Assembly: GCA_017474235.1 (NCBI GenBank)
Contig: JAFVIB010000023.1
Location: 1 to 58,174, forward strand
Source of the DNA: Alistipes sp.
GTDB lineage: Bacteria; Bacteroidota; Bacteroidia; Bacteroidales; Rikenellaceae
DNA: 58,174 nt
Direction: 5' to 3'
The notes under the pieces are model-generated. The model was not told the DNA's origin. It was given only the letters and a program-made list of their open reading frames with translations, and made no database searches. Numbering within the stretch: the first letter of the stretch is position 1; each line of letters begins with the position of its first letter. Of this stretch, positions 9,294 to 56,188 are shown piece by piece. The position numbers and the translations under genes were made by a program.

Positions 9294-9393
9294 GGATTGG
9301 CTACTACGCAGACAGAGGTCTGCTTCGTGACGCCCATCCATTCGCTGCCGCGGGCGTCCTTGCAAAGATTGAAAGTAGCTCTGCTACTTTTTT
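9294..9393. repeat. Three-hairpin repeat unit, copy 1
   Basis: A roughly 100-bp unit, about 96 percent identical to 9431-9530. It holds three hairpins: GCAGAC-AGAG-GTCTGC (9308-9323), GACGCCC/GGGCGTC (9329-9358, 16-base loop) and AAGTAG-CTCTG-CTACTT followed by a T run (ending 9393). The last resembles a plus-strand terminator. The start of the unit is GGATTGGCTAC. It lies in the dnaG/tRNA-Ser gap and belongs to no gene. Confidence 0.85.
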
Positions 9394-9430: not shown

Positions 9431-9530
9431 GGATTGGCTACTTCGCAGACTAAGGTCTGCTTCGTGACGCCCATCCATTCGCTGCCGCGGGCGTCCCTGC
9501 AAAGATTGAAAGTAGCTCTGCTACTTTTTT
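9431..9530. repeat. Three-hairpin repeat unit, copy 2
   Basis: The second copy of the unit at 9294-9393, offset by 137 bases. By eye the copies differ at four positions. Two are in the first hairpin loop (TAAG instead of AGAG) and the others are outside the paired arms, so all three stems are intact in both copies. It ends in CTACTTTTTTT. Confidence 0.85.
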
Positions 9531-9531
9531 T

Positions 9532-9585
9532 ATTTGTTGTAACAGCTCTTTAGTAAACAAGTTTACTCGACCTATTACAACAAAT
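9532..9585. other. Nested hairpin between repeat 2 and the tRNA-Ser terminator
   Basis: ATTTGTTGTAA (9532-9542) is exactly complementary to TTACAACAAAT (9575-9585). Inside it, AGTAAAC-AA-GTTTACT forms a second stem. It overlaps the T tail of the neighbouring repeat and the tail of the tRNA-Ser terminator. Its function is unknown. Confidence 0.6.
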
Positions 9586-9609
9586 AAAGCCTTGCAGATG
9601 CAAGGCTTT
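9580..9609 (-). terminator. Intrinsic terminator of tRNA-Ser
   Basis: On the minus strand AAAGCCTTGCA-TC-TGCAAGGCTTT (9586-9609) is followed by ATTTGTTG. It lies 10 bases beyond the tRNA-Ser 3' end. The trailer between tRNA and hairpin contains GCAAAGATTGAAAG, which also occurs in both repeat units on the other strand. Confidence 0.85.
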
Positions 9610-14832: not shown

Positions 14833-15954
14833 ATGAACAACATCCCACTTAGAAACCGCCGCTCATTTCGCCTATTTACACACTTCTGTCGTGTAATAGT
14901 TGCTATTACATTTATCTTCTCCGGAGCCGTAAAGTCTATGGATCCGTGGGGCACGGCACTTAGTGTGAATAACTATCTGGTAACATACGGTCTTGAGTTC
15001 TTCAAGCCGATTGTTATGATATTCTCTATATGGCTGTGTGGTGCGGAGCTGATGATGGGTTGTATGCTCCTCTTCAAGGTCCGAATTCGTATGTGTTCGA
15101 CCTTTGCCACCGTGTCGATGATATTCTTTACCATCCTCACCTTCTTAAGTGCAACGGTTATGCCTGTGGAGGATTGCGGATGCTTTGGCGATGTTATCAA
15201 ACTTACGCCGATGCAGTCGTTTATCAAAAATCTGATACTCCTGCCACTTATCCTTGTCGTTTGGTGGCGTTATAAGCCGGATAGAATGTTTGCCTTCTCG
15301 CGCTTGGAGTTCGCCCTCGCAGTCCTCTTCTGCTGCTTCAGTATGGGCGTGGGTACATACTGCTACTACCACTTGCCTCCTGTGGATTTGCTCCCCTATA
15401 AGGTGGGTACAAATATCGCACACGCAATGGATGAGGCGCGTAACCGCCAACAGCAGAGCGAGGTGGTGCTTGTCTATCGTAATCGCCGCACCGGTAAGCT
15501 GCGCGAGTTCTCACTCGACGATAAGGCGTGGCATAACGAGAACCGCTGGGAGTGGGTCGATACCCGTGTATTGTCTGATAATGCCGACCGCGTAGAGCCG
15601 ATGATTTTGGAGTTCTATATCTCCGATGAACAGGGTGAGGTTACAGATAGCCTCCTCTCTATCAAAGGCAACCTCTATATCCTCTGCGTAACCAACCGCA
15701 ATAAAATCAGCCATAAGTGCGAGCAACGCCTACGCTCGGTAGTGGAGCGGGCAGCCGAGGAGCAGGCACCTGTTATCTGCCTTACCCCTGAGCCTATCAC
15801 CCGCCCAACATACCATTCGTTTGCCGACAGCAAGCAAGTCCGTTGTTACAATATCGATTCCAAAACCCTGAAAACAATGCTTCGCGCGAATACGGGACTT
15901 GTGGTTCTTACTGACGGCATAATTACGCGAAAATCTAACTGCACAGATATTTGA
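14833..15954 (+). CDS. BT_3928-like DoxX/MauE-type membrane protein
   Basis: A 373-residue protein. Residues 1-150 form four hydrophobic segments of the DoxX/MauE type, including FSGAVKSMDPWGTA and a cysteine motif EDCGCFGD at the end of a helix. A short fifth hydrophobic segment (about 158-178) leads to a C-terminal periplasmic domain (about 185-373) without a clear catalytic motif. Such proteins are widespread in Bacteroidales. The Cys-Gly-Cys site suggests a redox or disulfide task, which is inference. It is the last gene of the suf-tmk run, and its stop codon lies inside the left arm of the giant hairpin element at 15949. Confidence 0.75.
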   Translation: MNNIPLRNRRSFRLFTHFCRVIVAITFIFSGAVKSMDPWGTALSVNNYLVTYGLEFFKPIVMIFSIWLCGAELMMGCMLLFKVRIRMCSTFATVSMIFFTILTFLSATVMPVEDCGCFGDVIKLTPMQSFIKNLILLPLILVVWWRYKPDRMFAFSRLEFALAVLFCCFSMGVGTYCYYHLPPVDLLPYKVGTNIAHAMDEARNRQQQSEVVLVYRNRRTGKLREFSLDDKAWHNENRWEWVDTRVLSDNADRVEPMILEFYISDEQGEVTDSLLSIKGNLYILCVTNRNKISHKCEQRLRSVVERAAEEQAPVICLTPEPITRPTYHSFADSKQVRCYNIDSKTLKTMLRANTGLVVLTDGIITRKSNCTDI

Positions 15955-16073
15955 TGTGATAGTTGCGTATTTCCTGCCGCTAACGACAACCTCGTCAATG
16001 GGCAGTACAAGTAGTACAGCCCATCGACTCGCTTATCGCCGAGCGTTGTAAATACACAACTCTGACATCAAAT
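15949..16073 (+). repeat. Giant hairpin element, site A
   Basis: A 125-bp imperfect palindrome. Outer arm ATTTGATGT (15949-15957) faces ACATCAAAT (16065-16073). Next come the unpaired GAT (15958-15960) and CTG (16062-16064), then helix AGTTGCGTATTT facing AAATACACAACT with one mismatch, motif CCGCTAAC (15977-15984) facing GCCGAGCG (16038-16045), a weaker helix, and the core ATGGGCAGTAC (15998-16008), loop AAGTA, GTACAGCCCAT (16014-16024). The stop codon of the upstream gene (15952-15954) is inside the left arm. The same plan with different helix sequences occurs at 54653-54779. Confidence 0.85.
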
Positions 16074-16452
16074 ATTTTGTTGTGTATAAGGTCGTATTCT
16101 CTGCCGCTAACCTTTTTCTCGACAATGGGCAGTACGCTCAGTACAGCCCATCGCCTCAAAAAACGCCGAGCGTTGTAAATACACAACTCTGACATCAAAT
16201 ATTTTGTTGTGTATAGGTCGTATTCTCTTCCGCTAACCTTTTTCTTGTCAATGGGAAATACCTTTAGTATGTCCCATCGCCTCAAAAAATGCCGAGCGTT
16301 ATAAATACACAACTCTGACATCAAATATTTTGTTGTGTATAGGTCGTATTCTCTTCCGCTAACTTTTTTCTCGACAATGGGAAATACCTTTAGTATGTCC
16401 CATCGCCTCAAAAAATGCCGAGCGTTGTAAATACACAACTCTGACATCAAAT
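15949..16452 (+). repeat. Tandem array of the giant hairpin, four cores at about 126-bp spacing
   Basis: GCCGAGCG recurs at 16038, 16165, 16291 and 16417. Units 2-4 share outer arms GTTGTGTAT and ATACACAAC. Cores lie at 15998-16024, 16125-16151, 16251-16277 and 16377-16403. The first two read ATGGGCAGTAC/GTACAGCCCAT and the last two ATGGGAAATAC/GTATGTCCCAT, so changes in one arm are matched in the other. The array fills the gap between the BT_3928-like gene and the OsmC gene. No gene is credible here. Confidence 0.9.
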
Positions 16453-53368: not shown

Positions 53369-54658
53369 ATGATTGAAAGATACAGCCGCGAGGTTATGCG
53401 TAATGTATGGACCGAGCAGAATAAGTTTAATGCCTACCTGAAGGTAGAGATTCTTGCATCTGAGGCGTGGAGTACCCTTGGCGTAGTGCCAAAGGAGGAT
53501 GTTGCAAAGCTTTGGGAGAAGGCTTCGTTCTCTATTGACCGTATCAAGGAGATTGAGGAGCAGACCCGCCACGATGTTGTAGCCTTTACCCGTGCCGTGT
53601 CAGAGACTTTGGGCGAGGAGCGTAAGTGGGTACACTACGGATTGACCTCTACAGATGTTGTTGATACTGCAAATGGTTATCTGCTCAAGCAGGCAAATGA
53701 GATTCTTGAGCAGGATTTGATTGAGTTCCTTGAGGTGCTCAAGCGTCGTGCATATGAGTTTAAGAGTACACCTTGCATCGGTCGTACACATGGTATTCAC
53801 GCCGATATTACCTGCTTTGGTCTTAAGTGGGCGTTGTGGTACGAGGAGATGAGCCGCAACCTTGAGCGTTTCCGCACTGCTGCACGCGGTGTAGAGGTTG
53901 GTAAGATGAGCGGTGCTGTGGGTAACTTCGCAAATATCCCTCCTGTAATTCAGGACTATGTCTGCGAGAAACTCGGCATTGATAGCGCAGACATCTCTAC
54001 ACAGGTTATCCAGCGCGACCGCCACGCTTACTATATCGCAACCCTCGCCGTTATCGCATCAACTCTTGAGCAGATGGCTATGGAGGTGCGCAACCTTCAG
54101 CGTACCGAGGTACACGAGGTTGAGGAGTCGTTTGGTAAGGGTCAGAAGGGCTCAAGTGCAATGCCTCATAAGCGTAACCCAATCAGCAGTGAGAATATCT
54201 GTGGCTGCGCTCGCGTGATGCGTGGCTATATGGCTACCGCTTGCGAGAATGTTGCCCTTTGGCACGAGCGCGACATCTCACACTCTGCTACCGAGCGTAT
54301 TATCCTTCCTGATGCAACAGAGCTTCTTGACTATATGCTCTGCCGCTTCAAGGGCATCCTTGATAACCTCGTAGTCTTTGAGGATGTGATGATGGAGAAT
54401 ATCTACCGCACTCGCAAGGTTATCTTCGCACAGCGCGTTATGAACGCACTGATTGATAAGGGTCTTTCTCGCGAGGAGGCTTACGACACCGTACAGCCTG
54501 TAGCTATGCGTGCTATGGCAGAGCGTGCTGACTATCAGGAGCTGCTCGCCGAGAACGAGAAGGTATCGTCACTCCTTACCCGTGAGGAACTTGACTCTTG
54601 CTTTACTCTTGAGTACTATCTTAAGAATGTAGATTATATCTTCAACCGCGTCTTTTAG
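53369..54658 (+). CDS. purB: Adenylosuccinate lyase
   Basis: A 429-residue enzyme of the fumarase/aspartase superfamily that releases fumarate from SAICAR and from adenylosuccinate. The signature [17 protein letters not shown] is complete, with [10 protein letters not shown] and [14 protein letters not shown] as the other conserved blocks. Normal length for the Bacillus-type form. It is the last gene of the operon, and its TAG (54656-54658) lies within the left arm of the giant hairpin element. Confidence 0.98.
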
Positions 54659-54779
54659 CGTGATAGCGGGGCACCTATCTCCGCTAACATATAAATCGAG
54701 CAAAGGGCAGTACGCATAAGTACAGCCCTTCGCTGCTTTATATGCCGAGCGGAGTATCTGCCCCGCTCTGACGCTAAAA
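54653..54779 (+). repeat. Giant hairpin element, site B
   Basis: Outer arm TTTTAGCGT (54653-54661) faces ACGCTAAAA (54771-54779). The unpaired GAT (54662-54664) and CTG (54768-54770) follow, then AGCGGGGCA (54665-54673) facing TGCCCCGCT (54759-54767), motif CCGCTAAC (54681-54688) facing GCCGAGCG (54744-54751), helix ATATAAA/TTTATAT, and the core AAGGGCAGTAC (54703-54713), loop GCATAA, GTACAGCCCTT (54720-54730). The design is the same as at 15949, with different helices. It may double as the purB terminator, although no T tract follows. Confidence 0.85.
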
Positions 54780-54836
54780 TAGTTACTTTAATGACACATT
54801 TTGACGACAAAATGCGGTGTTATTTCCAATTTTGCC

Positions 54837-54871: not shown

Positions 54872-56041
54872 ATGAAACGACTACTGCCTCTTGTTCTTGT
54901 TATTTGTGCCGCTATAGGTTGCACGCCTAAGCATAATCTTGAGATTAGATTAAAAGGTTTTCACAACGACACTCTGATTTTGGGTGTAATGCCATTGTCG
55001 GATTATATTGCCAATAACTATGATAATATGCAGACACAAACCCTTGTGGCTCAAGATGGTGTTATAAAGACAAATATTCCGACAGATGATTCTGCCAAAT
55101 ATTTTCAGCTTATAGCAACTCAATTATCTGTGCGTGAGGGTAGAATGTCTCTTCCGACACCTGCTGGTATAATCAGAAATTTTATTACCTCCAACGACAA
55201 AATCAGAATGGAGGTAACACCATTTGACAAGCATATTGAGGTTGCAGTAAAGCGTGGTTCGCGAGCCAATAGAGATATTGCAGATGTGAGAAATCAATAT
55301 CGCAAACATGCAGCAGACTATTTTGCATTGCTTATCGGAGATAAGGGGCAGCAGTTAAGCAGGGTAGAGCGCGGAGTGGCTATTCAGAATAGTCTAAATG
55401 CTATGGATAACGCGTTAATAGAGAGTATCAAAAGCAATCCGGATAGAGTCTCTTCGCTATTCCTTTTATTCAACCTGACACTATTGCCAGACGATATTGT
55501 TAAATATATAGAACATCTAAAACCTACACTTTTATCTCACGAATGGGAGGATGTCAATGCTCTCTATGAAAAGACAAAACAGATGTGTGCGGTGCGAGAT
55601 AAAGCAAAAAGAATGATAGATGAAAATGGAGCGGCTTTTGACTTCACAAGCAAAGATATTAACGGCAATGAGTTTACTCTTTCATCGCTTCGTGGTAAGT
55701 GGGTTGTCTTGGATTTTTGGGGTAGCTGGTGTGGTCCTTGTATGCGCGGTGTTCCAATGATGAAGAGATATTATGACCGTTATTGTAGTAAGATGGAGAT
55801 TGTCGGCATAGCTTGCAATGATAAACAGGAGCAGTGGCGTAAAGCTGTAGAGAAAAACGAGATGACTTGGATAAATATCTTTCACGATGAGGATACACTA
55901 CCTGCCAATAGCATTATGATGAACTATGCAGTTGCTAATTTTCCTACAAAGGTTATCATCACACCCGAAGGTTGCCTGCACAAGGTGTTTGTCGGTGAGA
56001 CTGAAGATTTCTACACAGAGATAGATGCTATAATGAAATAA
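54872..56041 (+). CDS. TlpA-family thiol-disulfide lipoprotein
   Basis: A 389-residue lipoprotein with signal MKRLLPLVLVICAAIGC (Cys17). Residues 20-245 are a DUF4369-like or helical N-terminal region of the kind found before TlpA domains in Bacteroidales. The C-terminal thioredoxin fold (about 248-389) has FWGSWCGPC with the redox pair and the cis-Pro segment NFPTKVII. It probably reduces or repairs periplasmic disulfides. It has its own promoter. Confidence 0.88.
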   Translation: MKRLLPLVLVICAAIGCTPKHNLEIRLKGFHNDTLILGVMPLSDYIANNYDNMQTQTLVAQDGVIKTNIPTDDSAKYFQLIATQLSVREGRMSLPTPAGIIRNFITSNDKIRMEVTPFDKHIEVAVKRGSRANRDIADVRNQYRKHAADYFALLIGDKGQQLSRVERGVAIQNSLNAMDNALIESIKSNPDRVSSLFLLFNLTLLPDDIVKYIEHLKPTLLSHEWEDVNALYEKTKQMCAVRDKAKRMIDENGAAFDFTSKDINGNEFTLSSLRGKWVVLDFWGSWCGPCMRGVPMMKRYYDRYCSKMEIVGIACNDKQEQWRKAVEKNEMTWINIFHDEDTLPANSIMMNYAVANFPTKVIITPEGCLHKVFVGETEDFYTEIDAIMK

Positions 56042-56065
56042 AACGCGAGTAACTATTATCAGCTG

Positions 56066-56176
56066 TCTAACAAGGAGATTTCTGCGTTACGCTTGCCCTC
56101 AAAATCCTCACATACGCTACAGTATGCTGCGGTTTTTCGGGCTACGCAAGCCTTGAAATCCCTCTTGTTATACAAC
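56066..56176. repeat. Large imperfect palindrome, second type
   Basis: Outer arms TAACAAG-GAGATTTC and GAAATC-CCTCTTGTTA are nearly complementary. Inside, AAAATCC faces GGTTTTT and the centre is CATAC-GCTACA-GTATG. The general plan (helix, internal loop, helix, small palindrome) resembles the giant hairpin elements but the sequences do not. I have a general impression that similar sequences occur as repeats in related genomes, which cannot be checked here. Confidence 0.6.
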
Positions 56177-56188
56177 TTCTAACGAAAA

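Follow-up and report, generated by a model that had tools for sequence, protein, structure and literature searches.

MITEs are short, non-autonomous, dispersed elements of DDE transposons with inverted-repeat ends, and integron attC sites are single-strand hairpins that lie just after stop codons and carry asymmetric bulges and RYYYAAC/GTTRRRY end boxes. REP sequences are units of 20-40 bp, found for the most part 3' of coding regions where the neighbouring genes are co-directional or convergent, and their ends can supply stop codons (PMC3733652). REPINs consist of inverted REPs that form hairpins with compensatory changes between the arms (PMC3116915).

The window analysed here is a stretch of 58,174 nucleotides from Alistipes sp. 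(contig JAFVIB010000023.1 of assembly GCA_017474235.1, forward strand) in which long hairpins occupy the 3' ends of genes. These gene-end hairpins are extragenic, present in high copy number and mostly 3' of genes, with a long predicted hairpin and compensatory arm changes, and REPINs are the closest described system. The family differs from REPs in size, with a unit of approximately 127-130 bp that carries a CCGCTAAC/GCCGAGCG box, in its strongly sense placement at the stop codon with the conventional terminator mostly missing, and in the end tags and the enzyme, both of which are treated below. Gene-end hairpins are also similar to MITEs, being short, non-autonomous and dispersed with inverted-repeat ends, but they lack a general target-site duplication and no parent element was seen in 1.56 Mb. 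With intrinsic terminators they share a place after the stop codon, a GC-rich inner hairpin, often with a T-rich 3' base, and the rarity of an ordinary terminator beside them; however, they are far longer, occur as dispersed near-identical modules and have no T run after the full hairpin. With attC sites they share asymmetric parts just after a stop codon, whereas the consensus of alignment A1 contains, by inspection, no complementary RYYYAAC/GTTRRRY end boxes.

The family displays a sense bias at the stop codon, turnover of classes, conventional terminators that are usually missing, a modular plan and several inner classes. We consider it slightly better than an even bet that it represents high-copy, non-autonomous, REPIN-like mobile DNA hairpins that replace terminators.

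Gene-end hairpins in the window

The window contains five class I copies, of which four are in tandem (15949-16452) and one lies at 54653, together with one divergent copy (56056-56182), and all three sites are 3' of + strand genes. The features are as follows:

14833..15954, + strand: MauE-domain gene upstream of the array; its TGA (15952-15954) falls within the left arm of copy 1
15949..16073, + strand: copy 1 of the gene-end hairpin, class I (fold, pattern match and profile E 2e-28, copy 1 being itself a member of the profile's own building set)
15977..15984, + strand: left conserved box CCGCTAAC of copy 1 (pattern search)
16038..16045, + strand: right conserved box GCCGAGCG of copy 1 (pattern search)
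16075..16200, + strand: tandem copy 2 (profile E 3.4e-27; direct repeat family D1)
16202..16326, + strand: tandem copy 3 (profile E 6.4e-22; direct repeat family D1)
16328..16452, + strand: tandem copy 4 (profile E 1.1e-23; direct repeat family D1)
53369..54658, + strand: adenylosuccinate lyase gene; its TAG (54656-54658) is part of the left arm of the 54653 copy
54653..54779, + strand: second site, class I copy at the 3' end of adenylosuccinate lyase (profile E 8.8e-29; fold)
54872..56041, + strand: thioredoxin-like gene upstream of the 56056 copy; its stop lies 14 nt before the edge of that copy
56056..56182, + strand: third site, divergent copy of apical type CTCACATACG..AGTATGCTGCGG (palindrome scan, sequence)

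The class I profile was built from 116 copies, those of the window included, and the 56056..56182 copy gave no match to it. An earlier note, made from the letters of the window alone, had described a 125-bp hairpin at 15949 that begins in the stop-codon region and closes on the complement of the gene's end, and folding bore this out: the fold energy is -53.4 kcal/mol for 15940-16085 (z -6.06) and -71.6 kcal/mol for 54645-54785 (z -9.32), and in neither case did any of 200 shuffles do as well. At both sites, the left edge lies in the last codons or stop of the gene and the right arm is complementary to those bases. Two of array units 2-4 were tested and gave weaker folds on their own (z -2.39 and -2.53). 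Copy 1 consists of an outer arm, the GAT/CTG step, a middle stem, the CCGCTAAC/GCCGAGCG box, an inner stem and an apical GGGC-A-GTAC hairpin. The GAT/CTG step, the boxes and the A-A mismatch of the apical stem are common to the 15949 and 54653 sites, as had been claimed, but this plan is too narrow for the family, in which GAA/TTG, TAT/CTA and other mismatches are frequent.

No known family had been recognised at this locus, and none was found: at the gathering score, Rfam returned nothing but two tRNAs in the window, and two sub-threshold matches at the 15949 site were at chance level. The literature covered, in which subscription papers were few, contained nothing on such a hairpin family in these bacteria. 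Elsewhere in the window, a 100-nt repeat adjoining a tRNA-Ser gene is present in two copies that are 96% identical (9294-9393 and 9431-9530), and a further palindrome, TTTATTTGTTGTAA..TTACAACAAATAAA, lies near these repeats at approximately 9529-9588.

Anatomy and apparent exchange of modules

The class I set comprises 119 copies, 114 of them with flanks. Across the 114, mirrored pairing begins at position 3 outside the boxes, continues with gaps to position 29 and drops steeply between positions 29 and 30, and it is this drop that gives the unit length stated above. The outer arm is often of the ATTT-NNN-GT type and is followed by a 3x3 step that reads GAT/CTG, GAA/TTG or TAT/CTA. Inward from the step, the middle stem leads to the boxes CCGCTAAC and GCCGAGCG, which enclose an inner stem whose base is AT-rich and an apical hairpin that is commonly GTAC..GTAC, with variable mismatch bases. 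The invariance of the boxes in alignment A1 is not independent evidence, because they served as the search pattern; a palindrome scan that did not use them recovered related hairpins in which the boxes are CCGCTAGC, CCGCTAAT or of quite another sequence.

Arms of the TTT-NNN-GT type recur at unrelated sites, and each of six inner cores was found joined to at least two different arm pairs, most of them self-complementary and some mixed, so that the arms look like exchangeable modules. The earlier suggestion that the outer arms are taken from the host site does not hold generally, given this recurrence and swapping between cores, but some palindromes do run into host bases, at 15949 and at locus L304. 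At L304, the host GATTAAGT, which holds the stop codon, recurs inverted (ACTTAATC) just past the right end of the copy, an arrangement that would suit either a copy lodged in the loop of an older terminator or a palindrome that has extended into host DNA.

Copy number and distribution

The pattern CCGCTAAC-N40..70-GCCGAGCG had 44 exact matches in the genome from which the window derives (1.97 Mb), against 0 for the same pattern read backwards. Matches were found in 11 of the 61 genomes searched, the source genome included, all 11 of the source genus; the 24 genomes of other families among the 61 had none. A covariance model was then built from 57 diverse copies and, at a cut-off of E up to 1e-5, matched 91 of 180 genomes of the genus, often at the ceiling of 19 scored candidates per genome and with 1-6 weak matches in some others. 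Across the order, the source genome alone among 247 genomes was matched, in a search that scored at most 13 candidates per genome under strict filters and could therefore miss weak or rare copies. The reading in the earlier note had turned on further copies and covarying helices, to be sought with such a model; the further copies are those given here, and the helices do covary (see below).

A pattern for one outer-arm type was present in 31 of 121 genomes of the genus (the source genome not among them), with many inner classes. In a scan of genome contigs, 10 of the matches listed were judged real (nine from Alistipes sp. and one from a Rikenellaceae bacterium), two further copies among them looked real (L162 and L164), and most of the others were due to chance. 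The arms of the family were seen in none of the viral contigs inspected among the matches listed that passed a loose filter. Genomes such as G104, G149, G093 and G147, large ones included, gave weaker matches to the covariance model (best E 5e-9 to 3e-19), which suggests that other clades of the genus carry diverged relatives.

Position and orientation relative to genes

In 1.56 Mb from four genomes, palindrome score and motif orientation identified 86 members of the superfamily, a lower bound given the strict filters, of which 83 were retained after three at piece ends had been dropped; genes in this set were open reading frames picked by length rather than curated. The gene on the left was in the sense orientation for 82 of the 83 elements (44 in co-directional gaps and 38 in convergent gaps, where a sense left gene is automatic) and antisense for one. 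Within co-directional gaps, the counts were thus 44 sense and 1 antisense (binomial p 2.6e-12), and none of the 83 lay in a divergent gap, though such gaps make up 96 of the 410 gaps of at least 100 nt in the four genomes. The left stops of the 82 elements were concentrated at the edge, with 57 within -16 to +19 nt of it and a further 20 at 111-143 nt, which is about one unit further, as with second copies. The stops of convergent right-hand genes showed no focus at the element edge.

A less strict bias was observed for 110 class I copies from more genomes, nine of the 119 having been dropped for short flanks and genes being open reading frames of at least 100 aa. The left gene was sense for 96 of the 110, and 72 of the 96 lay within -16 to +22 nt of the stop; co-directional gaps held 50 sense and 4 antisense copies, and 8 copies were between divergent genes. 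Under a looser rule (open reading frames of at least 70 aa), there were 92 sense copies, 17 antisense and 1 without a left gene. The bias in orientation and position is therefore strong but not absolute, and an absolute orientation lock is contradicted by the 12 of 110 class I copies with an antisense left gene (4 in co-directional and 8 in divergent gaps). L010, L019, L041, L044, L302 and L325 are between divergent genes, some of them no more than approximately 25 nt from an antisense left gene, and are exceptions to the placement at gene ends.

Terminators beside and inside the copies

Conventional terminators, scanned for as a simple hairpin with a T run in gaps of 100-900 nt, were largely missing beside the copies. 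A terminator was present in the gap at 4 of 49 gene ends with a copy at the stop, compared with 148 of 357 without one (Fisher p 1.3e-6), and in co-directional gaps the counts were 0 of 29 and 80 of 189, respectively (Fisher p 5.8e-7). Within 110 nt, a terminator was found at 109 of 359 ends without a copy (4 in shuffled sequence) and at 2 of 49 after a copy. One of the four exceptions is inside the window, just to the right of the 56056 copy.

Inside the hairpins, the 3' base of the inner hairpin was T-rich in 79 and A-rich in 13 of the 119 copies, the other 27 being neither, a composition that fits a predicted terminator in most copies, though not in all. There was no T run after the whole hairpin. 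The terminator scan, limited to 13-bp stems, located a site inside 1 of 49 copies in the sense direction and 4 of 49 in the antisense direction.

Turnover at orthologous gene ends

Among 26 orthologs of the adenylosuccinate lyase gene (84.8-100% identity), a hairpin of the same plan is present at the stop codon in at least 10, with several inner classes represented. Other orthologs have an ordinary terminator there, and G003, G006 and G029 have a terminator and no copy. Genomes G064 and G011, whose upstream DNA is 97% identical, differ by an extra class II copy in G064 that lies between the stop codon and an older class I copy and has TAATTT on both sides, as seen in this one genome pair. Eleven gene-end sites were compared among G064, G065 and G011 at 84% identity or more, as read from 17 comparisons: a full copy stood against none at 6 sites, the classes differed at 4 and the same first copy was present at 1. 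At that shared site, G064 and G011 have the same first copy and differ in the second, and strict gene-proximal insertion is contradicted there. For 15 of 110 class I copies, the 300 nt on the downstream side contain right-half remnants of other copies, in some places three in a row. Left-half fragments occur downstream of 6 of the 110, some of them truncated where the stretch ends, and upstream of none.

Presence and absence at orthologous gene ends, together with the turnover of classes, fit the mobile palindrome that the earlier note had offered as one possibility. An alternative explanation is that host terminators grew in place, short hairpins having been extended and kept complementary by template switching during replication, without any transposition. 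This is consistent with the ordinary terminators or short hairpins of relatives at the same place and with the few palindromes that run into host bases, and template switching can create and repair hairpins (PMC8794818). However, identical 70-nt cores are present at unrelated places of the source genome, the extra G064 copy separates a stop codon from an older copy, some copies are between divergent genes, and the copying of one arm cannot make the asymmetric boxes; growth in place appears quite unlikely on these grounds.

Pairing and covariation

Aligned cells at predicted pairs were paired in 92.9% of cases, compared with 73.8% (sd 0.6) in shuffled alignments, a control that ignores the relatedness of the hairpin copies, which are related; all slid controls were far lower. 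At 23 of 30 predicted pairs, both sides change in at least one copy. A sense-RNA fold under selection should yield G.U far above A.C, an expectation that is uncalibrated for these genomes. Among 1701 cells from the 57 diverse copies, the non-Watson-Crick combinations included 38 A.C and 28 G.T, and the redundant set gave 367 A.C against 61 G.T, an excess carried by inherited mismatches. Distinct one-step changes numbered 19 for A.C and 12 for G.T (summed over table rows). The pairing pattern accordingly shows no RNA-like preference for G.U. The earlier note had taken different helices with kept pairing as a sign of selection on a folded nucleic acid; the covariation is indeed strong, but selection on RNA finds no counterpart in the G.T counts.

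These data bear on the possibility that the hairpin is a structured RNA of the mRNA 3' end, with a protective, regulatory or processing role, in which the sense fold is selected and dispersal is secondary. The sense orientation of most copies at a stop codon, the excess of covariation over the shuffled and slid controls and the presence of remnants downstream rather than upstream of intact copies would all be expected from such an RNA. Each of the three counts, in which G.U does not exceed A.C, argues against it, as does the occurrence of quite different inner classes at the same stop in neighbouring species, and we regard a structured RNA as unlikely. Pairing may instead be maintained mostly at the DNA level, through module exchange and template switching, with recognition of the asymmetric parts. 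Template switching during replication is able to create, repair and maintain hairpin pairing (PMC8794818). Derivation of the entire right half by fold-back copying from a single arm was considered and rejected, because it would erase the asymmetric boxes.

Search for a mobilising enzyme

Movement by a REP-associated tyrosine (Y1) transposase, as in a classic REP/REPIN family, would account for the high copy number, extragenic location 3' of genes and compensatory hairpin plan, which REPINs share (PMC3116915), and for stop codons supplied by the element, as REP ends can do (PMC3733652). However, the Y1_Tnp domain (PF01797) was not found in the source genome and was present in only 2 of 180 genomes of the genus, neither of which had a covariance model match, so that no Y1 (RAYT) transposase was found in carriers of gene-end hairpins. 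The end tags of REPs were similarly missing: none of 114 gene-end hairpins had GTAG within its outer 15 nt, and only 1 of 114 had CGTC within 8 nt of an edge. Within the outer 15 nt, CGTC occurred at the right end, on the bottom strand, in 34 of 114 copies and at the left end in 1 of 114. The tag counts and the PF01797 searches largely refute movement by a Y1 transposase, which is now very improbable.

Retro-insertion, with a reverse transcriptase that is primed where genes end, would explain the focus of the left edge on the stop codon and the right-half remnants downstream. However, of 15 genomes chosen as carriers, only G003, G006, G064 and G065 showed the RVT_1 domain; it was not found in the other 11, among them the source genome (98.9% complete). 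As a general present-day mechanism, retro-insertion via RVT_1 is refuted, and we judge retro-insertion primed at gene ends to be extremely improbable. G104, which had been picked as a non-carrier for the RVT_1 comparison, has 19 covariance model matches.

There does not appear to be a general target-site duplication, as direct repeats of at least 3 nt flanked 8 of 93 copies, with 4.9 expected and up to 13 in 200 shuffles. No convincing autonomous copy or parent element with the same ends was seen in the 1.56 Mb of the four genomes; of two wide arm pairs (364 and 4819 nt apart), the first is plainly two separate copies and the second, judged by its ends, is likely to be so as well.

Proposed mechanism and significance

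The position, orientation bias and turnover of the gene-end hairpins and the lack of terminators beside them were observed directly; their movement and the termination of transcription by them are inferred. In the mechanism proposed here, copies would move as hairpin-forming single-stranded or cruciform DNA, and their asymmetric parts would be recognised by a trans-acting enzyme, which is unlikely to be either a Y1 transposase or a reverse transcriptase. Copies would enter mostly where transcription ends and would displace the old terminator, after which the inner hairpin, GC-rich and in most copies T-rich at its 3' base, may end transcription or protect the mRNA 3' end. If so, the gene-proximal copy would be kept and downstream copies would decay. 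Complementarity of the arms would be preserved largely by template switching and exchange between copies, and not only by selection on RNA.

Several observations count against a mobile terminator, namely the antisense and divergent copies, the failure to find a mobiliser or an autonomous copy, the lack of a general duplication and of a T run after the whole hairpin, the 13 of 119 A-rich inner bases, the predicted terminator site inside only 1 of 49 copies on the sense strand and the one site at which renewal was not gene-proximal. The fuller proposal, of a transposable terminator that a hairpin-recognising enzyme inserts mostly in the sense orientation at transcription ends, where it replaces the host terminator and supplies a new one, with many species of a single genus undergoing this again and again, is put forward as a tentative and somewhat doubtful one. 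If a mobile, terminator-replacing hairpin family is the correct reading, then the 3' ends of genes in a common gut genus are being rewritten by a selfish hairpin, genes can gain terminators in the form of mobile modules, and a REPIN-like system exists without its known transposase. The family would also offer a natural test case for separating hairpin covariation that results from DNA replication from that which results from selection on RNA.

Other palindrome families

Two other palindrome families were noted during the analysis. The first, TTTCGGCTTCTTTGAG..CTCAAATAATCTCGAAA, is dispersed, approximately 120-150 bp in length and of a different plan, and was seen at G000:C35 36339, at approximately G000:C24 83566, and at G064:C10 202281 and 205669. 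The second, GCGTTGCGGATTTAGGATAGCC.. and its reverse, is present at G000:C35 224770, 282938 and 304396 and at approximately G000:C24 100438, and at all four places it lies approximately 70-235 nt from gene-end hairpins.
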